Assembly (NCBI GenBank): GCA_022511445.1
Contig: JAFLVE010000013.1
Span: 1 to 55,673 of the forward strand
Origin: Clostridiales bacterium
GTDB lineage: Bacteria > Bacillota > Clostridia > Christensenellales > Pumilibacteraceae
Length of the DNA stretch: 55,673 nt
Direction: 5' to 3'
Part shown: positions 5,965 through 53,241 of the stretch, one piece after another
How the letters are laid out: each line of letters begins with the position of its first letter
Numbering within the stretch: position 1 is the first letter of the stretch
Program-made: the position numbers and the translations under genes
The notes under the pieces: generated by a model
Database searches by the model: none
Told to the model about the DNA's origin: nothing
What the model saw: only the letters and a program-made list of their open reading frames with translations

Positions 5965-8136
5965 CTATTTTACCACGCTCTCGCCGTTCTCTCGCCTTAC
6001 TTCGACTACTACGTACGGACGGCCCTGCTCAATGCGGGACTCGGCTTTATTTGTTCTGTTAGCGTCGGTTTTTCCTGTTGTTCTACCGAGGTTGCATCTT
6101 AAAGCGTCGGTCTGATCCACGGTAAGCTTTCCGTCCAAAAAAGTCTTTACGTAATAATCGAAAAACGAGTCGAAAAGTTTATAGTCGCCAACCTTAGCGG
6201 CGATACGCATTTGTTGCGCCACCACGTCGTAAGGCGGAGTGCCGCTACGCGAAAGCACGTTAAGAAGGTGGGACGCAGCCGACACACTGCCGCTTTCGGT
6301 GAGGAACACGGCAAGTTGAAGCATAAACTCGTCGTCGCTGTGAAGCTTATAAACAAACTTGGACATCGACGAGTCCCGTTTACTGTGCCGCTTTGCGTCG
6401 ATTGCGTACATAGCGCCGTAGTAATACTCGTTTCTTTTACGCCTTAGCTTTCTTAATAGCGACGACCTTCTCCTGCCGTCGCCAAGACGCGCCGCCGTGA
6501 TTGCGGCAAGCGCGGCGTACTTGTCGTCGTGCTTGATTTTGTCGTAAATATAATAATAATTGCGCGAACACTCGGATATATTGCCGAGTATAAGGTGCGC
6601 CTCGGCACAAACGTTGTAGCCGTACTCCCCGTCGGGCCGAAGTCTTTTGTACTCCTCGGCATACCGCGCGACGGCATGGTACTCTTGTAATATCGATTCG
6701 ATATCTATAAGGAGATATAACGCCGGCATATATTCGGGGTCGAGGCTGTGCGACTTGTCCGCCTTGACGAACGCCTCCGTATAGTCGTGCCGCTTAAAAT
6801 CGATATACGCCTTATAGTACCAATACTGCTCGTTATATTCCTTGGACGGGTAGCTTTCGAGCGCCGCGTCCGCCCCGTCAAGGTCGTCAAGCTCGATTAA
6901 ACACGACGCCTCGTCGAAAAGATTTTCGAACAGCTTAAATTCATCGGCAAGCCGCTTATACGTTTTTGCCGCCTTTTCGTACTCCATTTGCGACACGCAA
7001 ACCTCGGCGTACTTAACATTGGCGGCGGGATCGTCGGGACGGCTTAAAATCATGCTCTCCGCTATCTCGAACGCCTTTTCGCCGTTTTTTGTAATAAGGT
7101 ACAAATCGATAAGCCTAAAGTATGCGCCCGCGTAAAAGTTGTCGCGTATGGAAAGCGCGGCCTGCATAATCTTAATCGCGGACATGTAATCGTTTTTTTG
7201 TATATACAAACTGGCGGCGTTTTCGTACACCGACCAGGCACGCAACAATTCGCCTCTGTCGGTAACGTGCGAACATTCGGTTGCCGCCGCCTCGTAGTCG
7301 GATAAAGCCGCGTCGAATTTACCCATTGAATGGTACGCGTAGCCGCGACGCGAGTATGCCATAAGTCGTTCGACGGGCGACGTTGCACGCTCTAAAGCCA
7401 AAGTCCACCGCGCAACGTTGTTTTCCGATTCCGACTTTGCAGGGTCGTAAAGATAAGTATCCTCTTCTTCTATCTCGACGTCAACCGTTTCGTCACCTGC
7501 CGACGGATAATCTATCATGCCGAAGTCGACTATAAGATTCATTATGCGCCCGTCCTCGGTAAGTCCGACGTAGCTACGGTACACGCCGTCGCCCCAGCCG
7601 GTGGAAAAAACAGCGTAACTGTTGCCGAACATCTCGACGGTAGTATGCGTTTGCCCGTTAAGAATGATATGACCGGCAAGCGGGTGCACCTCGTCCGACA
7701 AGTGCGAGGCATATGTTTTATAAGCAACCTCGTCCGCAAGACAGCACACGCCCGAAAGAATGGACGAAGCCGCAGCGTCGGAGGAATAAGCGAGCTTACC
7801 CAAAATCTTGTCGCGCTCACCCGGAAAGCAAAGCTCCCACCTGTCGATTTTCTCTTCGCCGAATTTGAAACCGCAGTACGCGACGCGCTCGCCGCCGTCG
7901 GTCATACAGCACAGGCAGTACGGAAACCCCACCACGCCGAATTCGCGGGCGAACGGGAGATATTTATGCGCAGACGAATACGCGTCGAATAAAACGAGCT
8001 TGTTCGACGCGAATTGCACAAAGCCGTATTCGGTGTATGCAAGGCTAACGTCGCACACTCGGCGCGTGGCAATCGCCTCGCCGAAGTCGATGGGCGCATA
8101 CAGTCGGCTTTTGGGTATTTTAACCGTTTTTTTCAA
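5965..8136 (-). CDS. DUF4241-like domain fused to tetratricopeptide repeats
   Basis: 723 residues. The first 230 or so resemble DUF4241; the best landmark is FSTGWGDGVYRSYVG...LIVDFG at about 178-207. An acidic linker (VEIEEEDTYLYD) leads into repeated 34-residue helix pairs typical of TPRs from about 255 to 600, e.g. AYSRRGYAYHSMGKFDAALSDYEAA. There is no signal peptide or membrane segment, so it should be a cytoplasmic scaffold or adaptor. It starts 8 bases after the dapL stop and is the last gene of the glutamine/DAP cluster. No enzymatic function can be assigned. Confidence 0.8.
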   Translation of the reverse strand: MKKTVKIPKSRLYAPIDFGEAIATRRVCDVSLAYTEYGFVQFASNKLVLFDAYSSAHKYLPFAREFGVVGFPYCLCCMTDGGERVAYCGFKFGEEKIDRWELCFPGERDKILGKLAYSSDAAASSILSGVCCLADEVAYKTYASHLSDEVHPLAGHIILNGQTHTTVEMFGNSYAVFSTGWGDGVYRSYVGLTEDGRIMNLIVDFGMIDYPSAGDETVDVEIEEEDTYLYDPAKSESENNVARWTLALERATSPVERLMAYSRRGYAYHSMGKFDAALSDYEAAATECSHVTDRGELLRAWSVYENAASLYIQKNDYMSAIKIMQAALSIRDNFYAGAYFRLIDLYLITKNGEKAFEIAESMILSRPDDPAANVKYAEVCVSQMEYEKAAKTYKRLADEFKLFENLFDEASCLIELDDLDGADAALESYPSKEYNEQYWYYKAYIDFKRHDYTEAFVKADKSHSLDPEYMPALYLLIDIESILQEYHAVARYAEEYKRLRPDGEYGYNVCAEAHLILGNISECSRNYYYIYDKIKHDDKYAALAAITAARLGDGRRRSSLLRKLRRKRNEYYYGAMYAIDAKRHSKRDSSMSKFVYKLHSDDEFMLQLAVFLTESGSVSAASHLLNVLSRSGTPPYDVVAQQMRIAAKVGDYKLFDSFFDYYVKTFLDGKLTVDQTDALRCNLGRTTGKTDANRTNKAESRIEQGRPYVVVEVRRENGESVVK

Positions 8137-8144
8137 AGTAGAAT

Positions 8145-9362
8145 TTACCGCGCGGTTTTGAGCGGTTTAAAGATAGAGCTGCGCACTTCCGTAAAATCCT
8201 TCCAGAACGTCTCGAAGCGTTTAAGCGCTTCGGCAGTGCGCGCGGGCGTATTAAAGGCGGTAATTCTAATCCAGCCGTTGCAGTTTTTTCCGAAGCCGAA
8301 GCCGGGGGTGCACACTATCTTTGCTTTTTTCAGTAAATAGTCGAAAAACTCCCAGGAGTCCACGCCCGTATAAAACCATATATACGGCGAGTTTACGCCG
8401 CCCGTAAATTCTATACCCCACTTTTTGAACTTGTCGCAAATAAGCTTCGCATTGCTTTTATATACGCTTAACGACTGTTTAACCTCGTCGTACCCGCCCT
8501 TTAGCGCGCTTTCCGCCATGCGCTGAACGATATACGACGTGCCGTTGGACTTTATCGACTGGCGCTTATACCACAAACGGTTAAGGACTGTAAGGTTGCC
8601 GTTGGGGATAACCGTCCAACCGCACCTTACGCCGGTAAAGCCCGCCATTTTGGAGAGCGAGCAAATTTCTATCGCACAGTCGCGCGCGCCGTTCACTTCG
8701 TAGATAGAGCGTGCTATATTCTTTTCCTCTATAAACGCCTCATACGCGGCGTCGTAAATAATAATCGCGTCCGTATCGAGCGCAAACCTCACCCACTCCT
8801 TAAGCTGATCGACGGTGTATGCCGCACCCGTCGGGTTGTTGGGCGAGCAAATATATATGAGGTCGGCTTTGGTCTTTTTGGAGGGCATGGGGAGGAAGCC
8901 GTTACTCTTATTACCCTCGACGTAGACTACTTTATGTCCCGCAATGATATTGGCGTCGACGTATGCGGGATACACGGGGTCGGGAATCATAACGCTCACG
9001 TCCGAATCGAATATATCAAGGAGATTACCCACGCCGTTTTTTGCGCCGTCGGTAACGAACACGTCGTCAAGATCGATCTCTACGCCGCGGCGCTTATAGT
9101 AATCGACAATCGCCTGTTTCAAAAACGGATAGCCGTCATACGGTCCGTAACCACGGAAAAACTTGTCGGTACTCATTTCGAAGGCGGCGTCGTTACACGC
9201 CTTAATTACCTTAGCTACAAGCGGCTGGGTAACGTCGCCTATACCGAGGCTTATTATATCCGATTGGGGAAAATCCGCTTTGTACTTATCGACAGCGGCA
9301 GACACTTTGGCAAAAAGATAATCATCGGCAAGAAGATTAAAATTTTTGTTGAGTTTTTTCAT
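8145..9362 (-). CDS. dapL: LL-diaminopimelate aminotransferase
   Basis: 405 residues, normal for DapL. A class I PLP aminotransferase fold with GIGDVTQPL near residue 41, FRGYGPYDGYP (about 69-79), CSPNNPTGA (172-180) and the catalytic lysine at about 238 in SLSKMAGFTGVR. It converts tetrahydrodipicolinate directly to LL-2,6-diaminopimelate, the one-step route found in many anaerobes. DapF, which acts next to give meso-DAP for peptidoglycan and lysine, is two genes upstream, fused to CarB. The start codon follows the pyrG stop by one base, with GGGGAG in the pyrG tail serving as ribosome site. Confidence 0.93.
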   Translation of the reverse strand: MKKLNKNFNLLADDYLFAKVSAAVDKYKADFPQSDIISLGIGDVTQPLVAKVIKACNDAAFEMSTDKFFRGYGPYDGYPFLKQAIVDYYKRRGVEIDLDDVFVTDGAKNGVGNLLDIFDSDVSVMIPDPVYPAYVDANIIAGHKVVYVEGNKSNGFLPMPSKKTKADLIYICSPNNPTGAAYTVDQLKEWVRFALDTDAIIIYDAAYEAFIEEKNIARSIYEVNGARDCAIEICSLSKMAGFTGVRCGWTVIPNGNLTVLNRLWYKRQSIKSNGTSYIVQRMAESALKGGYDEVKQSLSVYKSNAKLICDKFKKWGIEFTGGVNSPYIWFYTGVDSWEFFDYLLKKAKIVCTPGFGFGKNCNGWIRITAFNTPARTAEALKRFETFWKDFTEVRSSIFKPLKTAR

Positions 9363-9363
9363 T

Positions 9364-11007
9364 CTACTCCCCTTTTTTCTTTGACTTTTTTTGGCCGCGC
9401 TCCTCTTTAAACGTTTTGGCGGCGGCTATAAACTCCCTGAAAATAGGTTGGGGATTTGCGGGACGGGATTTGAATTCGGGATGATACTGAACACCGACGT
9501 AGAAAAGCTTGTCGGTTATTTCCACCGCTTCCACAAGGTTGCCGTCGGGCGAAAGTCCGCTTTGGGTAAGCCCCGCCTTGGTCATTGCCTCGCGCACGGC
9601 GTTGTTAAACTCGTAGCGGTGACGGTGGCGCTCCATTACCGAGGTTACGCCCTCGCCGTAGCACTTAGAAAGCGTGGTGCCGGGCTGAATAACGCACTCG
9701 TACGCGCCGAGACGCATCGTGCCGCCCGTGTTTTCGTAGCCGATTTGGTCGTCCATTATGTCGATAACCTTGTGCTGAGAGGAAGGATCGAACTCTCGGC
9801 TTGTGGCGTCCGCATAGCCCAAAACGTTTCTTGCAAACTCGATTGTAGCTATCTGCATGCCCAAGCATATTCCAAAGTACGGCTTATTATTCGTCCTGCA
9901 ATACTTGGCTGCGGTAATCATGCCCTCGATACCTCGGTCGCCGAAGCCGCCGGGGACAATTATACCGTCGGCACAATCGAGGTAGCTTTTTACCGTGCCG
10001 TCGTTAAGTTTTTCGGCGTCCACCCACTTAAGGTCGATTTTTACGCCGTTTGCTATACCCGCGTGAGTGAGCGCTTCCGCAACGGACAGGTACGCGTCGT
10101 ACATCTGAACGTACTTTCCGACAAGCGCAATGGTGACGGCGCCGTCGCGCGCCTTTGCGCGCTCGACCATGTTACGCCACTTGACTAAGTCGGGCGGATT
10201 CTCCTCGAGTCCGAGCTCGCGCGTAACGATTTCGTCCATGCCCGCGTCAAGAAGAAGGAGGGGCACCTCGTACAAAAGCTCCGCGTCGATATTTTCTATT
10301 ACGCAATCGGGCTCGACGTTACAAGAAAGCGCAAGCTTTCTTTTAAGCTTGTCGTCAATGTGTTTATTGGTACGGAGAACAATAAGATTGGGTGAGATAC
10401 CGAGCGAACGAAGGGTCTTTACCGAGTGTTGGGTGGGCTTGGTTTTTACCTCGCCGTAGCTCGACAGCGTGGGCGCAAGCGTAACATGAACAAAAAGACA
10501 ATTATCCCTGCCCACGTCGTTGCTGACCTGACGAATAGCCTCGATATACGGCAGACTTTCTATATCGCCCACCGTGCCGCCTATCTCCGTAATAACGACG
10601 TCCGCGTCTATCTTTTTACCGACCGAATAAATAAACTTTTTTATCTCGTTGGTAACGTGCGGAATAACCTGAACAGTCTCTCCGTCGTAAACGCCGTGAC
10701 GCTCGTTGTAAAGTACGTTTTCGTACACCCTACCCGTAGTAAGATTGCTGTACTTATTAAGGTTTTCGTCTATAAAGCGCTCGTAGTGTCCGAGGTCGAG
10801 GTCGGTTTCCGCGCCGTCCTCAGTCACGAACACCTCGCCGTGCTGATACGGACTCATGGTGCCGGGGTCTACGTTTATATAAGGATCGAGCTTTTGCGCG
10901 ATTACCTTAAGCCCCTTGGCTTTAAGAATAACTCCGAGGCTTGCCGCGGTTATACCCTTTCCGAGTCCCGAAACGACTCCGCCCGTTACAAAAATGTACT
11001 TTCTCAT
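9364..11007 (-). CDS. pyrG: CTP synthase (glutamine-hydrolysing, canonical copy)
   Basis: 547 residues. The amidoligase domain has [10 protein letters not shown] (P-loop), [13 protein letters not shown] and [11 protein letters not shown]. The class I glutamine amidotransferase domain has PGGFG, the nucleophile Cys381 in GICLGMQ, and His509/Glu511 in YHPEF, so the triad is complete. It makes CTP from UTP, ATP and glutamine. It lies 49 bases downstream of carB-dapF with GGAGAG before the ATG. A second, degenerate pyrG lies at 42839-44416; this copy is the functional one by motif. Confidence 0.96.
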
Positions 11008-40198: not shown

Positions 40199-41488
<1,290 letters not shown>

Positions 41489-42751: not shown

Positions 42752-42785
42752 AAAAAAACACGGCACAATTGCCGCGTTTTTAGTT
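42752..42785 (+). terminator. Terminator after the flavoprotein gene
   Basis: AACACGGCA and TGCCGCGTT pair with one mismatch around CAAT, followed by TTTTAG. Confidence 0.65.
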
Positions 42786-42838: not shown

Positions 42839-44416
42839 CTATTTCTCTGCGTAGGCGGCGACGGCTTTAATAAACTCCGCGTACAGCGGGTGCGTCGACA
42901 GCAGTCTCGAACGGTATTCGGGGTTGTAAATAGTTCCGATATAGAACTTGTTTGTAGGGATCTCGAACGCCTCGGGCACGCCCGTCGGGGAATGCACGGC
43001 ATATACAAGCCCGTTCTTTAAGAACATTTGTTCGTACTTGCCGTTAAAGTCGAAGCGGTGACGATGGCGCTCGCGCGTTGTAACGTCGCCGTAAATCTTG
43101 TTAAGATACGTGCCTGCGGTTATCATCGAGGGGAACGCGCCCTTTTTGAGCATTTTCGGCTCGACGAAGCATACCACGGGATACGGAGTTTCGGCGTCGA
43201 ACTCCTGCGACGACGCGCCTGTCATGTTGCACACGTTGCGCGCAAACTCGACGACGCCCGCCTGTGCGCCGAGACCTATCATTAGGCAGGGAATATCTTG
43301 TTCCCTTGCGTACTTGGCGGCGGCAACCTTGCCCTCGAAACCACGCTCGCCGAAGCCGGGCGCAATAATAATTCCGTCGTAGTTTTTGAGTATGTCGGGC
43401 TCTTTCTCAACGTCCGCGCTCGAAACCATAACAAGCTCGACCGCTTTGTTTTTAAGTAAGCCCGCCGTCATAAGCGCGTCGTTAATCGACTGGTACGCCG
43501 TCGGTTTTTCCACGTACTTTCCGACGAGCGCGACGTGCAGTTTATTTTTTGCGGTCTGCGCTTTTTCGGCGCGGTTGCACATATCGGTCCACGCCTCGAT
43601 ATTGGGCTCGCGCTCTTCCATTTTCAGCTTCCTAAGCGCAATGCCCGAAAAGTCCTGCTCGTGGAGGCGAAGCGGCACAATGTAAAGATTGTCGGTGGTA
43701 ATGCTCTCGATAATGCAGTTTCTGTCGACGTTGCAGAACATGGACAGCTTCTTTTTTGCACTGTCGTCAAGCGGCATGTCCGAGCGACAAACGATTATGT
43801 CCGGCTGAATACCGATATTCTGAAGCTCCTTGACAGAGTTTTGGGACGGCTTGGTCTTGTGCTCGCCACTCATCTCGATAATAGGCACGTATGTTACGTG
43901 AATGTACAGCGCGTTGCCCTTGCCGAGCTCGCCGCGGCATTGGCGGATTGCCTCGAGGTACGGGTGGTTTTCTATATCGCCGACCACGCCGCCGACTTCG
44001 CAAACAACGACGTCCGTTTCGGGACGGTTAAGCTTATAAAGCGCCGACTTAATCTCGTCGGTAATGTGCGGAACAACTTGAACGGATTCGCCGTCGTACG
44101 CGCCCTCGCGCTCCTTGCTTATCACGGACGAATATATCTTGCCGCTCGTGATGTTGCTGTTTTCGGTAAGGTCGCGGTCGAGAAAGCGCTCGTAGTGACC
44201 GAGAACAAGGTCGCCCTCGCCGCCGTCGTCGGTAACAAACACCTCGCCGTGCTGGTACGGGCTTAAGTACAGTGAGTCGACGTTAAAGTACGGATCGAAC
44301 TTAACCATATCGACAACGTACCCGCGCGACTTAATAAGCATCGCGAGGCTTGCCGCCGTTATTCCCTTGCCCAGTCCCGACACGACACCGCCGGTAACAA
44401 AAATATACTTTGACAT
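42839..44416 (-). CDS. Second CTP synthase homologue with inactivated glutaminase
   Basis: 525 residues, collinear with PyrG. The synthetase half keeps [44 protein letters not shown] and KTKPSQNSVK, although the canonical PGTM after NVD has become SLYL. The amidotransferase half has lost its triad: the nucleophile Cys is Gly381 (MIGLGAQ instead of GICLGMQ) and the catalytic His is Asn498 (YNPE instead of YHPE); only Glu500 remains. GGTMRLG is missing and PGGFG reads APGFG. It could use free ammonia only, or be a regulatory or repurposed nucleotide-binding protein. Its promoter pair and hairpin-spaced ribosome site are unlike other genes here, and a normal pyrG exists at 9364-11007. Confidence 0.9.
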   Translation of the reverse strand: MSKYIFVTGGVVSGLGKGITAASLAMLIKSRGYVVDMVKFDPYFNVDSLYLSPYQHGEVFVTDDGGEGDLVLGHYERFLDRDLTENSNITSGKIYSSVISKEREGAYDGESVQVVPHITDEIKSALYKLNRPETDVVVCEVGGVVGDIENHPYLEAIRQCRGELGKGNALYIHVTYVPIIEMSGEHKTKPSQNSVKELQNIGIQPDIIVCRSDMPLDDSAKKKLSMFCNVDRNCIIESITTDNLYIVPLRLHEQDFSGIALRKLKMEEREPNIEAWTDMCNRAEKAQTAKNKLHVALVGKYVEKPTAYQSINDALMTAGLLKNKAVELVMVSSADVEKEPDILKNYDGIIIAPGFGERGFEGKVAAAKYAREQDIPCLMIGLGAQAGVVEFARNVCNMTGASSQEFDAETPYPVVCFVEPKMLKKGAFPSMITAGTYLNKIYGDVTTRERHRHRFDFNGKYEQMFLKNGLVYAVHSPTGVPEAFEIPTNKFYIGTIYNPEYRSRLLSTHPLYAEFIKAVAAYAEK

Positions 44417-44592: not shown

Positions 44593-46422
44593 CTAACTAA
44601 TTATATTATTACTTCCATTTTCCGCCGACAGAGGATCGTAATTTTTAAACGCATTGCCGCCTTGGAAATAGGAGACCACGCTACAAAACTTTCTCCTGTT
44701 GCGCGAATTTATTTCCGCCGTCATATCGGTATACTGACGGGACTTAACACGCCCCTCAAGAATGTCCGAAAGCGAGACTTTGGTAAGGTTACCAAGGTAA
44801 AACGGATTCTCGGTTATCCGATCGGTAACGTAACCGCCCCATGCACACGCGAAAACATTACCGGCGCAATCGATACCCACCTTGCTTTCAAACATATTAC
44901 AACAAGCCTTGCCGTCGTTAAACGCAGGAATGCATCTCAGCGAGCAATGAAGCTTACATTTTATTCCGTTAGATTCCAATCCGTTTTTAAGCTTGTTTAC
45001 TACGTCTATGGGATTATAGGCGGCATACTTCGTTTTGTTCGTGTTGCTACCGAGCTTTCCTACCGGCATTAACCTTAATAACGTTGCGTCTATTTCGATA
45101 TCACGATGACGTTCTTTTATATTAACTATTTTGTTTATTACGCACTCTATATCCTCGTCGGATAAGTCGTCGTTTATGATAGGTACGTTTATTGTCAAAG
45201 CTTCGGTATAATCCAACAACGCATTTACCTGTTCGATATTGCTATTACTGTATTCGGCTTCATTTCTGGTAAAATCGGGATTATCTCCTTCCGCTTTAGA
45301 AGCGTCTATGGTAATTTCGCAATGTTTAATCGCCGTGGGGAATTTGTTTTTCATATATTCTGCGGCGCCTATACCCGTAGTAGATATCGAGACCCTGTCC
45401 TCGCCGAGTTGCTCTATCGCGGCTTGAATGATATTAACGCTCTCGTTGCATACCAACGGATCCCCGCCGGCAAAATCGACGCTGTTTATTAAATTTTTTG
45501 CCTTGCACAGATTATTGAGCACTGTAAGCTTATCGTTTGCGGATAACTCGACGCGGCTTTTATCGTGCGTAGCGCATATCTCGCAATTGTAATGGCATTT
45601 AGATGTAATATTCCAAATAACTTTGACGTTTCCGCGCGTATTAACAAAAGAGCTTAGCGGATGCGGTAAATCTTCCAATAATGCTATTACGTCTTTATTT
45701 GTTGCAAGCGCACCCGGTTTCTTTTTCATATCCTCCAACGTCATCCACTTGCCTTTTGTATTTTGTTGCAACAATTTATCGCGTGATTGAATTTTGATAC
45801 GCACGTCATAAAATACAAAAGCGTTCATCGAAAGGTCGCCGTGAACAGGTTTTATGCTGAAGTGAACTTCCCCGTCTACGGGAATAACGGATAAAATATC
45901 CTTGTCGGATACGCCTAAATCTACTAAACACCGTCTTACGATTTTGTCTTGTTCCGATATTTCTTTATATTTGTCCAAACTGCCGTGCGGTAAAAAAAAG
46001 TCGTCACCGGTTAAATATAATGTTTTGTTTTTCTCGTTATCGACTACGCGGATTATCGCGGTATATCTTAAGTTCTCTTTTGCCTTATTTATAAGCATAG
46101 TATCGATCGACAAATTAATATTGTGATCCTCTTTAATCTTACTGCTGTTTTTACGCCATCTTACAATACCTATAACAAGATACACGAATATCGCAAGCAT
46201 AATGATAGAAGCGATTACTTGCGCCCACAAATCCAAATTGGAAAAATTAGGAGCGAATGCGAGAATGTTTAGCAATAAATTTATCGCTAAAGTTATTATT
46301 AACTCCAAGTCTTTTCCATGTTTACTTTTAAGCTCGTTGGCTTTGCTGTACTCGTTTGCAATGTTTTTAATCGCGTCAATGCTCAGCAATACCTCGGGAG
46401 GAGCATAATCCTTAAGTTTCAT
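44593..46422 (-). CDS. Membrane-anchored radical SAM protein with degenerate Nudix domain and SPASM-like C-terminus
   Basis: 609 residues in four parts. Residues about 39-58 and 66-88 are two transmembrane helices after a charged N-terminus. Residues about 118-235 look like a Nudix fold whose box has decayed (LPHG...RRCLVDLG at 144-170 instead of the RE..EE.G catalytic acids). The radical SAM core has C276-x3-C280-x2-C283 and GGDP at 319. The C-terminal cysteines (C489, C493, C497, C507, C508, C519, C526) suggest auxiliary Fe-S clusters as in SPASM proteins. The DNA is AT-rich compared with neighbours, suggesting transfer. It has its own promoter overlapping the upstream toxin stop codon and only a weak AGGT ribosome site. 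No precursor peptide gene is visible, so substrate is unknown. Confidence 0.85.
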   Translation of the reverse strand: MKLKDYAPPEVLLSIDAIKNIANEYSKANELKSKHGKDLELIITLAINLLLNILAFAPNFSNLDLWAQVIASIIMLAIFVYLVIGIVRWRKNSSKIKEDHNINLSIDTMLINKAKENLRYTAIIRVVDNEKNKTLYLTGDDFFLPHGSLDKYKEISEQDKIVRRCLVDLGVSDKDILSVIPVDGEVHFSIKPVHGDLSMNAFVFYDVRIKIQSRDKLLQQNTKGKWMTLEDMKKKPGALATNKDVIALLEDLPHPLSSFVNTRGNVKVIWNITSKCHYNCEICATHDKSRVELSANDKLTVLNNLCKAKNLINSVDFAGGDPLVCNESVNIIQAAIEQLGEDRVSISTTGIGAAEYMKNKFPTAIKHCEITIDASKAEGDNPDFTRNEAEYSNSNIEQVNALLDYTEALTINVPIINDDLSDEDIECVINKIVNIKERHRDIEIDATLLRLMPVGKLGSNTNKTKYAAYNPIDVVNKLKNGLESNGIKCKLHCSLRCIPAFNDGKACCNMFESKVGIDCAGNVFACAWGGYVTDRITENPFYLGNLTKVSLSDILEGRVKSRQYTDMTAEINSRNRRKFCSVVSYFQGGNAFKNYDPLSAENGSNNIIS

Positions 46423-46502: not shown

Positions 46503-46531
46503 ATTTTATCACGGTTGCACTGTTTAATCAA
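46503..46531 (-). promoter_or_regulatory. Promoter of the radical SAM gene
   Basis: TTGATT (46526-46531), a 17-base spacer and TAAAAT (46503-46508); the -35 lies in the last codons of the preceding RnlA-like gene. Confidence 0.45.
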
Positions 46532-48425
46532 CAGACGGCTTCATAGAAAAACCGATTTCTTTTAACTTTTTTGCGTTATACTCGACGACGTTTAACAGGT
46601 TGTCGAAGATCTTTTTTGCAACCGCCTTGTCCGTTATCGAACGCGACGCGTTTCCGTCGGTATTGTCGGAGTGAGCGAAAAAGTTGCGGCGCGAAAAGTA
46701 TTCGGTGTACAGCGCAACCATAACCTCGGCATAGACCACGCTGCCTATCCTTTTTTGGTACGCCGTTTTAAGAATGTAGTTACCCGCCTCGTCCTTGTCG
46801 AAAGCTTGACCTATCATCTTGACCTTTATGCCCTCGGCGCGCTGAAGGTCGAAAACAAACCGCTCCAAGCCGCGATACGGCGGCACCAACAGCACCGAGT
46901 AATCGGAAAGCCTAAGCTTAGTCTGATTAAAGTCGAGTATGCCGTAGGAAAAGTCTATTTTCGACTGTTCGGACAGGAACGCCGTCGCCGTGGGCAACTT
47001 GCTAAGCAGCCGCCTTTCCACCTCGTCGACTTTGCCGCTCGATCCGGCATTGTTCTCTACATAGCCCTCGAGTGCGGAGGAATAATCGCTGTCGCGACTG
47101 ACCTGCGACTGAATCTCGCCGAAAAGGTCGGAGCGCTTGCCCTGGATGGAAAGAGTGTGTTTGCCCGTAGCGTATCTAAGGTACACCTTTTGGGCGAGCT
47201 CGTCGGTAACCGTATAGTTTTTCACTTCCTGAGCCGTACCCGAAAACTCGGTGGAAGTATTAACCTTGTACTTTCCGGCCGATTTAATACGTTTAATAGC
47301 GGCGACGAGCGCTTCGGGCGGATAGTTCTTTATCGAATACGCGCCGCCGCCCTCGGTTTGCGACGCAATCTCGCCGAACTTTTGATCGGGGGGTTCGTTC
47401 TTTGATTTAGGCGGTCTGCCGCGGCGAGGCTTTACCGTCTCCTGTTCTGTCGCGGGTTTAACGGTACCCGAAATATCCGAAAAAACGCCCGTGCCGGAAT
47501 GCGGTTTATACGTCGCAGTCGGTTTAACGTCGTACTCCTCATCTCCGAAGGAAATAGTCGTCTGCTTCTTTTTACCGACGCGCTTCGTACTTTTTGCATT
47601 GATAACGCTTCCCGCGCTTCGGTCGTAGGTCGGTTTTTCGGGCGGCTTTACAGTTTCTTCGGATTTGGGAACATACGGCGTTTCTATAAATCCGGTACCG
47701 TAGGAATACGTGCGCTTGTACTGAACGGCGGGAGCCGTAGGCTGTTGAGAATTACCGTCGTCCTTTTTCTCTTTTCGTTTTGCTCGGTCGGGCGGATAAA
47801 TCTCGTCGGTCGGCACCTCGTTTCCGTTTTTGGTAATCATAACCGCCGATTTCTTTTTTGTTCGGTCGGGCGGACAAATCTCGTCCGTCGGAACAAGCGC
47901 ACCGCTTTTCGTCACAATCATTCCGACACCCTTTTTAATAGCGTCCGTCTGCGCGTCAATTGCCGATTCGGCGCCGTGCGATCCTGCGCTCTTTCTTGAC
48001 TTTCCCTGCATTTTGTCCGCTTGCTGCGGAGTTACGTACACTCGAGAACGAACGCCTGTCTTGCCTTCCGTCGCCTTTATCTCGGTCGGCGCGTTCGTTT
48101 TGTCTTCGGCCGCCGTATCCTGCCTTTGCGAACTTCCGTGCGAAGGCAGCTCCGATTTTTTAACCTGCTTTCCGCTCTGCGGGAACGCACCCAACAACTC
48201 GTCCGCAAAGGACTTAGGCGCGCTTATGGAAAGCACCTTTCCGCGGTTGTCGTAAACAAGGGTAACGTGCTCGCCGTCGCGTATGAACATATAGCGGTCG
48301 TAAAACGAATTTTCCGCCGCCATAACAGTCCCGCGTGAAATATACTTCGTTTGGTCAATCCCCTCTATAAATCTTTGCGCCTCAATGGGTGTACAGGGCG
48401 AAATGTTATATCTTACATTTCCCAT
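46524..48425 (-). CDS. RnlA/LsoA-like HEPN toxin with long disordered middle and AT-hook
   Basis: 633 residues. The N-terminal 85 residues resemble the TBP-like repeat domain of RnlA. Residues about 86-365 are low-complexity and basic/proline-rich. That segment contains two tandem 23-residue copies (about 168-190 and 194-216; core VPTDEI.PPDR) and a PRRGRPPK AT-hook (333-340). From about 370 the RnlA DNA-binding-like and toxin domains follow: YTVTDELAQKVYLRYATGK, LSDYSVLLVPPYRGLE, and RNFFAHSD with the HEPN R580-x4-H585 signature, then the terminal SRSI..KAVAKKI helix. RnlA is an mRNA-cleaving toxin that blocks phage T4. No RnlB-like antitoxin gene is adjacent. ATG follows CGGAG. Confidence 0.7.
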   Translation of the reverse strand: MGNVRYNISPCTPIEAQRFIEGIDQTKYISRGTVMAAENSFYDRYMFIRDGEHVTLVYDNRGKVLSISAPKSFADELLGAFPQSGKQVKKSELPSHGSSQRQDTAAEDKTNAPTEIKATEGKTGVRSRVYVTPQQADKMQGKSRKSAGSHGAESAIDAQTDAIKKGVGMIVTKSGALVPTDEICPPDRTKKKSAVMITKNGNEVPTDEIYPPDRAKRKEKKDDGNSQQPTAPAVQYKRTYSYGTGFIETPYVPKSEETVKPPEKPTYDRSAGSVINAKSTKRVGKKKQTTISFGDEEYDVKPTATYKPHSGTGVFSDISGTVKPATEQETVKPRRGRPPKSKNEPPDQKFGEIASQTEGGGAYSIKNYPPEALVAAIKRIKSAGKYKVNTSTEFSGTAQEVKNYTVTDELAQKVYLRYATGKHTLSIQGKRSDLFGEIQSQVSRDSDYSSALEGYVENNAGSSGKVDEVERRLLSKLPTATAFLSEQSKIDFSYGILDFNQTKLRLSDYSVLLVPPYRGLERFVFDLQRAEGIKVKMIGQAFDKDEAGNYILKTAYQKRIGSVVYAEVMVALYTEYFSRRNFFAHSDNTDGNASRSITDKAVAKKIFDNLLNVVEYNAKKLKEIGFSMKPSVD

Positions 48426-52473: not shown

Positions 52474-53241
52474 CTACTTTTTGTTCAGCTTGTAAATGAG
52501 ATTAAGCCCGCGAAGCGTGAGCGTGCGGTCCACCACGTCGATAATATCCACGCACTTATTGACTATGTCGGAAATGCCGCCCGTCGCAATGACTTTCGCC
52601 CCATCGATACCCGCCTCGGTTTTCAGCCGCTTTACCATTGACTCTATCATGCCGGAATAGCCGTAGATTATTCCCGACTGCATGTTGGTTATCGTTGTTC
52701 TGCCTATCGCCTTAGCGGGCGGAGTAAGCTCCACCTTGGGGAGCCGTGCCGCCGCGGACGAAAGCGATTCCGCCGCCGACTTCAGTCCGAACGAGATAGC
52801 ACCGCCCAACAGCTCGCCACCCGCCCCAATCACGTTAAAGGTTGTAGCGGTGCCGCAGTCGATAACGACGCAGGGCGCGCCGTACAGCTTGTACGCGGCG
52901 ACGCAGTTAACGACGCGGTCCGCGCCGAGCTCCTTGGGATTGTCGTACTTTATGTTAAGTCCGGTTTTCAATCCCGCGCCGACAATCATCGGCTTAAACC
53001 CGAAATACACCTCTATCATATGCTCGAAGGTGTAATTGAGGTTGGGATTGACGGAGCTAATCACCGCGCCCTCGATATCGCGAACGGAGACGTTTTTAAG
53101 CGACAACAGTTCCTTTATTAACAGCCAATATTCGTCGCCGGTCTTGTTTGTCGACGCCATACGGAGCGTGTCCACAAGCTCGTCATCCTTAAACACGCCC
53201 ATTTTTATATTGGTATTGCCTATGTCGAAAACTATAATCAT
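52474..53241 (-). CDS. coaX: Type III pantothenate kinase
   Basis: 255 residues, standard length. DIGNTNIKMG (phosphate-1), GADRVVNCVAA and IDCGTATTFNV are the CoaX signatures. It makes 4'-phosphopantothenate, the first step to CoA. It starts 7 bases after the ECF S-component gene, forming a two-gene operon. Confidence 0.95.
   Translation of the reverse strand: MIIVFDIGNTNIKMGVFKDDELVDTLRMASTNKTGDEYWLLIKELLSLKNVSVRDIEGAVISSVNPNLNYTFEHMIEVYFGFKPMIVGAGLKTGLNIKYDNPKELGADRVVNCVAAYKLYGAPCVVIDCGTATTFNVIGAGGELLGGAISFGLKSAAESLSSAAARLPKVELTPPAKAIGRTTITNMQSGIIYGYSGMIESMVKRLKTEAGIDGAKVIATGGISDIVNKCVDIIDVVDRTLTLRGLNLIYKLNKK

Follow-up and report, generated by a model that had tools for sequence, protein, structure and literature searches.

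What does a bacterium that already encodes an intact cytidine triphosphate (CTP) synthase do with a second one whose catalytic residues have changed? All four nucleoside triphosphates bind to CTP synthase, a universal enzyme that changes shape with them, and the question is posed by a 55,673-nucleotide stretch of DNA (hereafter the window; contig JAFLVE010000013.1 of assembly GCA_022511445.1, a Clostridiales bacterium of the family Pumilibacteraceae) in which the genes for an ordinary PyrG and for a paralogue that we call CTPS2, proteins of 48% identity, lie 32 kb apart. We show that a catalytic Asp of the synthetase site and the glutaminase nucleophile are replaced in all 44 aligned CTPS2 sequences, and suggest that a nucleotide-binding pseudoenzyme is likelier than an ammonia-only enzyme; more tentatively, CTPS2 may regulate an RnlA-family HEPN ribonuclease encoded close by. 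The features on which this turns are:

42839..44416, minus strand: CTPS2, CTP synthase paralogue (P0001), 525 residues, ATG start, no internal stop
44204..44206, minus strand: Val71 codon, replacing the Mg2+/catalytic Asp (E. coli Asp72, fly Asp70); Val in 44/44 CTPS2, Asp in 15/15 ordinary PyrG
43274..43276, minus strand: Gly381 codon, replacing the glutaminase Cys (E. coli Cys379); Gly in 44/44 CTPS2, Cys in 15/15 ordinary PyrG
42923..42925, minus strand: Asn498 codon, replacing the triad His (E. coli His515); Asn 12, Arg 12, Gln 10, His 8 and Ser 2 among 44 CTPS2
44264..44275, minus strand: SLYL (S48-L49-Y50-L51), replacing PGTM by alignment
9364..11007, minus strand: ordinary PyrG (P0005), catalytic residues intact by alignment

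Altered residues in the two domains of CTPS2

Residues of CTPS2 were mapped by alignment to the PyrG of the window and to solved CTP synthases, and followed through a family alignment of 63 CTP synthases (44 CTPS2, 15 ordinary PyrG and four odd sequences set aside, of which L075 and L076 belong, though diverged, to the CTPS2 clade and L078 and L079 lie outside it). CTPS2 belongs to the CTP synthase superfamily, since it has the CTP_synth_N and class I GATase domains and keeps the CTP synthase fold in its predicted structure, and it passes the curated CTP synthase models NF003792 and TIGR00337. It departs from PyrG (EC 6.3.4.2) most visibly on the glutamine side: the nucleophile Cys is found in 0/44 CTPS2 and the triad His in only eight, the triad Glu (Glu500) is kept in all 44, and the oxyanion Gly351 of E. 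coli, Pro353 in the window's protein, is Pro, Ala or Ser in 43/44 and Gly in one. The PGTM segment is part of the L2 loop, its last residue corresponding to fly Phe50, which makes a backbone contact to GTP and belongs to the ammonia tunnel region (excerpt of PMC8325340, from which the role of this loop is taken). The wing, the site of the GG(T/S)(M/L)RLG motif that an excerpt of PMC9138612 ties to GTP activation, is about eight residues shorter than in ordinary PyrG (13–18 residues across CTPS2 against 22–23 in the 15 PyrG), and this motif (wing/L13) was not seen in the wing region of the CTPS2 rows. Hence the Cys-His-Glu triad, oxyanion Gly and GTP-activation motif of a glutamine-hydrolysing PyrG are not found together in CTPS2. 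The tunnel residues Pro54 (44/44) and His57 (43/44) are kept, as are most residues of the GTP pocket (Lys297, Tyr298 and Phe353 each in 43 and Arg356 in 41 of the 44), so that GTP binding may persist, and Ala384, Val71 and Gly381 are fixed in all 44.

In the original prediction CTPS2 was a second CTP synthase with its glutaminase triad removed, marked by Gly381, Asn498 and SLYL and accompanied by a normal pyrG 32 kb away. Gene, residues and distance all stand; the removal extends to the Cys and His and not to the Glu. A clade sharing Gly and Asn at these sites is borne out at the Cys position (Gly in 44/44, with no aligned member keeping Cys) and not at the mixed His position, where Asn occurs in 12/44. 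Considering that the changes recur in 44 aligned copies, that the family matches listed are free of stops and that one copy comes from the record of the cultured strain Anaerocaecibacter muris CLA-AA-M11 (L135; the same place as L037), they are neither chance nor an assembly slip.

The claim that most synthetase motifs survive holds for the UTP and ATP contacts and overlooked the loss of Asp72. Lys40, Asp147, Glu149, Lys187, Thr188, Lys189, Gln192, Arg211 and Lys223 are present in 44/44 CTPS2, Asp42 in 43/44, and Ser14 and Lys18 in the 43 rows that cover them (one row does not); Phe227, which we take to be a CTP contact, is Phe in 44/44 CTPS2 and in 9/15 PyrG. The Asp72 position, by contrast, is Val in all 44, Val in L076 and Leu in L075, and Asp72 is thus missing from all 46 CTPS2-clade members in the alignment. 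In the excerpt of PMC8325340, Lys18, Lys40, Asp72, Glu140 and Gly143 of E. coli form with Mg the proposed site of phosphoryl transfer from ATP to UTP, and fly Asp70 touches this site through a water molecule (2021 cryo-electron microscopy). CTPS2 therefore lacks one element of the Lys18, Lys40, Asp72, Glu140 and Mg2+ site that marks an active CTP synthetase, and at Glu140 it has Glu in 32 and Asp in 12 of 44. Since one identical hydrophobic residue occupies the Asp72 position in all 44, this appears to be a fixed replacement rather than gradual erosion, and it makes a nucleotide-binding pseudoenzyme likelier, as judged from sequence, than an ammonia-only CTP synthase.

The best-surviving rival holds that CTPS2 makes CTP from ammonia, or acts as an amidoligase on another nucleotide, taking up ammonia through an open tunnel and working with a rearranged metal site. 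The retained UTP and ATP contacts, with Lys18, Lys40 and the tunnel residues, would suit such an enzyme; both the shorter wing and the altered L2 loop are parts of the glutamine/GTP apparatus, and E. coli and L. lactis variants broken in their use of glutamine or GTP keep most of their ammonia-dependent activity (table 1 in the excerpt of PMC9138612). We nevertheless consider it unlikely, given the invariant Val at Asp72, the change of Glu140 to Asp in 12/44, the finding of no new conserved acidic residue among the divergent synthetase-domain columns (the nearest, Glu85, is present in 23/44 CTPS2) and, in each of the 46 genomes with CTPS2, another and weaker CTP synthase match, some of these matches being only fragments and their catalytic residues having been checked in the 15 ordinary PyrG. 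Of the roles originally offered, those of an ammonia-only enzyme and of a protein acting on another nucleotide thus lose ground to a regulatory one.

One comparable family is PRK06186 (NF004836), described as related to the C-terminal region of CTP synthase, which shares a CTP synthase-like glutaminase domain with CTPS2. The match is below threshold (120 bits against a cut-off of 260) and the model, of 228 positions, covers only residues 294–519 of CTPS2, whereas CTPS2 keeps the synthetase domain.

Distribution, age and divergence of CTPS2

CTPS2 was found in 46/74 genomes of Pumilibacteraceae, the family of Anaerocaecibacter and Pumilibacter, and its cultured carriers include Anaerocaecibacter muris, Pumilibacter muris and P. 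intestinalis. When 396 genomes of the order were searched with a CTPS2 profile, the 22 best scores (866–924 bits) all fell within Pumilibacteraceae, and the next (759 bits and below) began with family f19, in which the three copies fetched carry Asp72. One f19 sequence (L159, the one CTP synthase match listed for genome G118) reads GISLGMQ, with the nucleophile Cys replaced by Ser and with Asp72 and PGTM kept. The exact coding pattern DLVxGHYER, which would miss 3/44 CTPS2 because of a different residue before the Val, occurred in 1/391 genomes of the class, namely the window's own, this being the sole Pumilibacteraceae member of that sample; the matching Asp version occurred in 43/60 class genomes. 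Eight viral contigs also matched the Val pattern; these are unrelated, their short open reading frames reading GHYES.

A tree of 69 rows (30 of the 44 CTPS2, with 14 other rows of the genus omitted, the four odd sequences, and 35 PyrG from the family and order) was built by a quick method with SH-aLRT (Shimodaira–Hasegawa-like approximate likelihood ratio test) values and no bootstrap, and some of its end branches are long. A branch with SH-aLRT 100 parts CTPS2 together with L075 and L076 from the 35 PyrG rows and L078 and L079. This split rules out a recent duplication of the local pyrG; CTPS2 is, by its place in the tree, an old paralogue and not a copy of that gene. L078 (5587–7158, genome G067) and L079 (9230–10894, genome G071) are paralogues in which Cys has become Gln and Gly, respectively, and Asp72 is kept; grouping as they do with ordinary PyrG, they are better candidates for ammonia-only enzymes. 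Within the clade, L075 (6109–10476, genome G065) and L076 (genome G066) have a glutaminase half that is changed further, and in L075 an extra gene (7242–8732) lies between the ribonuclease gene and CTPS2. Two copies of CTPS2 are present in genome G004 (7% contamination), on contigs C108 and C90, and one of these adjoins a ribonuclease gene in two open reading frames (L131).

In pairs matched between CTPS2 and PyrG from the same nine genomes, both CTPS2 domains diverge faster than PyrG (36/36 pairs), and the glutaminase half diverges fastest (mean identity 0.474 in CTPS2 vs 0.701 in PyrG). This bears on a second rival, in which CTPS2 regulates ordinary PyrG by entering mixed tetramers or filaments and damping or stabilizing it. 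Its faster divergence argues against such a role, as does the fact that CTPS2 has the ribonuclease gene, and not pyrG, close beside it, and we judge this explanation rather less probable than the ammonia-dependent enzyme.

The neighbouring RnlA-family HEPN ribonuclease

The original prediction also missed a partner gene:

46524..48425, minus strand: RnlA/RNase LS-family HEPN ribonuclease-like protein (P0003), 633 residues, by domain and fold matches
46671..46688, minus strand: HEPN catalytic motif Arg580-x4-His585 (RNFFAH), Arg and His in 63/64 aligned rows

The protein consists of an N-terminal domain (1–92), a disordered linker, an NRD-like domain (363–445) and a HEPN domain (446–623), and the family assignment rests on its RnlA DBD/HEPN domain, its Rx4-6H motif and its RnlA fold. 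The 64th row (L131) does not cover the motif, which is intact in 63/63 covered rows. RnlA/RNase LS and LsoA, its top structural matches, are HEPN toxins that share with it PF19034, Arg-x4-His and the order of N-terminal, NRD-like and HEPN parts; a phmmer search against PDB sequences found no match up to E 1, whereas the fold comparison did. Unlike them, it has a long disordered linker, a recurring chromosomal place, no RnlB seen and, in 44/63 loci, a CTP synthase paralogue following its gene. The linker contains an AT-hook-like RRGRPPK, and PF02178 matches 4/22 family members, though it is not among the hits listed for this protein. Ribonucleases of this class are known for phage defence; PADLOC gave no match for CTPS2 or the ribonuclease at E<=0.1. 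The ribonuclease is present in 65/74 family genomes, and a survey of 247 genomes of the order found it in none besides the 22 of Pumilibacteraceae. A phage origin was considered and set aside, as none of 82 viral-contig stretches that matched ribonuclease patterns was confirmed, and so was a plasmid or other mobile origin, for which there was one weak plasmid match, annotated as an RnlA family toxin.

Linkage was followed in 63 ribonuclease loci, obtained from a named-genome scan seeded with two ribonuclease peptide patterns. In 44 of them the ribonuclease gene has CTPS2 downstream of it in the same orientation, the gap being at most 100 bp in 41 (median 28); the remaining three gaps measure 226, 347 and 1749 bp. 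By genome, 45 of the 74 have both genes, one has CTPS2 alone, 20 have the ribonuclease alone and eight have neither (Fisher p 0.0014, uncorrected for kinship and with some genomes incomplete). In the single CTPS2-only genome (G053) the gene runs off the contig end, and CTPS2 without the ribonuclease was never seen where the flank is visible. The ribonuclease without CTPS2 accounts for 19/63 loci, two of these ending a short way past the ribonuclease gene; loss of the HEPN motif was sought in these 19 and the motif was intact in all. The pairing of a HEPN ribonuclease gene with one for a protein that handles nucleotides recalls HEPN/MNT (HepT/MntA), with the difference that MntA, according to the excerpts drawn on, is an active adenylyltransferase and CTPS2, a relative of CTP synthase, looks inactive.

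A third rival makes CTPS2 the antitoxin of an RnlAB-like toxin–antitoxin pair, standing in RnlB's place. An RnlA-family HEPN protein with intact Arg-x4-His forms a tight two-gene unit with CTPS2, RnlA is known with RnlB as its antitoxin (excerpt of PMC3710099), and the RnlB profile (PF15933) matched 0/74 family genomes; this absence is weak evidence, because the profile was silent in 14 control genomes too. Since the ribonuclease stands without CTPS2 in 20/74 genomes and keeps its motif, we favour an accessory regulator over an obligate antitoxin; the occurrence of the ribonuclease across the family in a recurring gene order is, moreover, unlike that of a mobile pair. An antitoxin role therefore seems improbable, somewhat more so than control of PyrG.

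Selection on CTPS2

The ratio of non-synonymous to synonymous substitution rates (dN/dS) has a pairwise median of 0.099 among 20 members of the genus (183/190 pairs usable), with 0.065 for the synthetase (AL) domain (187 pairs) and 0.121 for the glutaminase (GAT) domain (150 pairs), these values being rough because dS is high for many pairs. For the window's CTPS2 the ratio is 0.037 against its nearest relative and, computed from dN and dS against genome G001, 0.11 (0.09 for PyrG). No internal stops occur among the CTPS2 family matches listed. CTPS2 is retained under purifying selection and is not decaying; a pseudogene is ruled out by this selection, the stop-free matches and the conservation, and the check for frameshifts and decay posed by the original prediction found no frameshift and no relaxed selection. 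The notion of a dying, functionless duplicate, which might draw on the fast glutaminase half and its further alteration in the L075 and L076 lineages, is already contradicted by these selection data, by the one deep clade and by the fixation of Val71, Gly381 and Ala384 as new residues, and deserves next to no credence.

Gene neighbourhood

The surrounding genes of the window are:

44593..46422, minus strand: radical SAM/SPASM gene between the ribonuclease gene and CTPS2 in the window's genome
48816..52253, minus strand: Ig-like surface protein, encoded upstream of the ribonuclease gene (Pfam Ig-like match below cut-off)
52474..53241, minus strand: coaX, type III pantothenate kinase, a member of the recurring gene order by locus comparison
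40217..41488, plus strand: adenylosuccinate synthetase (purA), convergent downstream neighbour, named from sequence

The radical SAM/SPASM gene has no counterpart in the other 47 clustered loci and is absent from the collinear G006 locus; its product shows two hydrophobic N-terminal stretches, read from the sequence, and matches prokaryotic viperin profiles weakly (PADLOC 1.8e-10; NCBIfam 34 bits, cut-off 180). The Ig-like protein is large and has a C-terminal hydrophobic stretch. In two loci (L113 and L115) purA directly follows the ribonuclease gene, and in two others lacking CTPS2 (L137 and L138) the next gene, on the opposite strand, resembles the MazF/PemK type in its sequence. A terminator-like hairpin of 12 pairs lies 3' of CTPS2 at 42781–42754. 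Neither the promoter-like sites (14, somewhat above the shuffled 8.3, standard deviation 2.9) nor the terminator-like sites (13, nearer the shuffled 9.3, standard deviation 2.9) were used as evidence.

A possible nucleotide-sensing regulator

We favour, at a little less than an even chance, the reading that CTPS2 is a pseudoenzyme that binds the neighbouring ribonuclease and tunes it according to the pyrimidine nucleotide state, and we lean towards a modulator rather than an obligate antitoxin. Because CTP synthase binds the four nucleoside triphosphates and changes shape with them, a version free of catalysis would be a natural metabolite sensor. CTPS2 would still bind UTP or CTP (with ATP) without turnover and, its chemistry lost, may retain the ligand-driven shift between open and closed states that CTP synthases undergo upon binding ATP, UTP or CTP (excerpt of PMC8325340). 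By binding the HEPN ribonuclease it could pass on its ligand state, such that RNA cleavage would follow the pyrimidine nucleotide state. The outcome leaves the original interpretation partly supported.

Several points weigh against this proposal. The GTP pocket is conserved beyond what a pure pseudoenzyme needs, and Val at the Asp72 position might only weaken catalysis, since we found no Asp72 mutant data in the CTP synthase literature drawn on. The functional coupling is the weakest link. The ribonuclease occurs without CTPS2 in the 20 genomes noted above and CTPS2 presence needs nine changes on the ribonuclease tree (a single gain with several losses would account for these), so the ribonuclease does not depend on CTPS2. 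Further, the Ig-like gene lies upstream of the ribonuclease gene in 55/63 loci (within 560 bp in 45), with or without CTPS2, and, the chromosomal gene order being a recurring one, the closeness of the pair could mean a shared neighbour history that mimics joint function. Among the papers listed by literature searches on the link, none was seen to connect RnlA or HEPN to a paralogue of CTP synthase.

Finally, considering the wider proposal, we suggest, as a possibility that we hold more doubtfully than the tuning of the ribonuclease itself, that an ancient CTP synthase with both of its sites disarmed may, within one bacterial family, have become a dedicated UTP/CTP sensor subunit that sets how active an RnlA-family HEPN ribonuclease with a housekeeping role is, and so couples RNA decay to the pool of pyrimidines. 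The label 'CTP synthase' assigned by the curated models NF003792 and TIGR00337 can name a protein that possibly makes no CTP. Cultured carriers exist, which opens the CTPS2 system to experiment and, if the proposal is true, it would constitute a new way for nucleotide supply to control RNA turnover.
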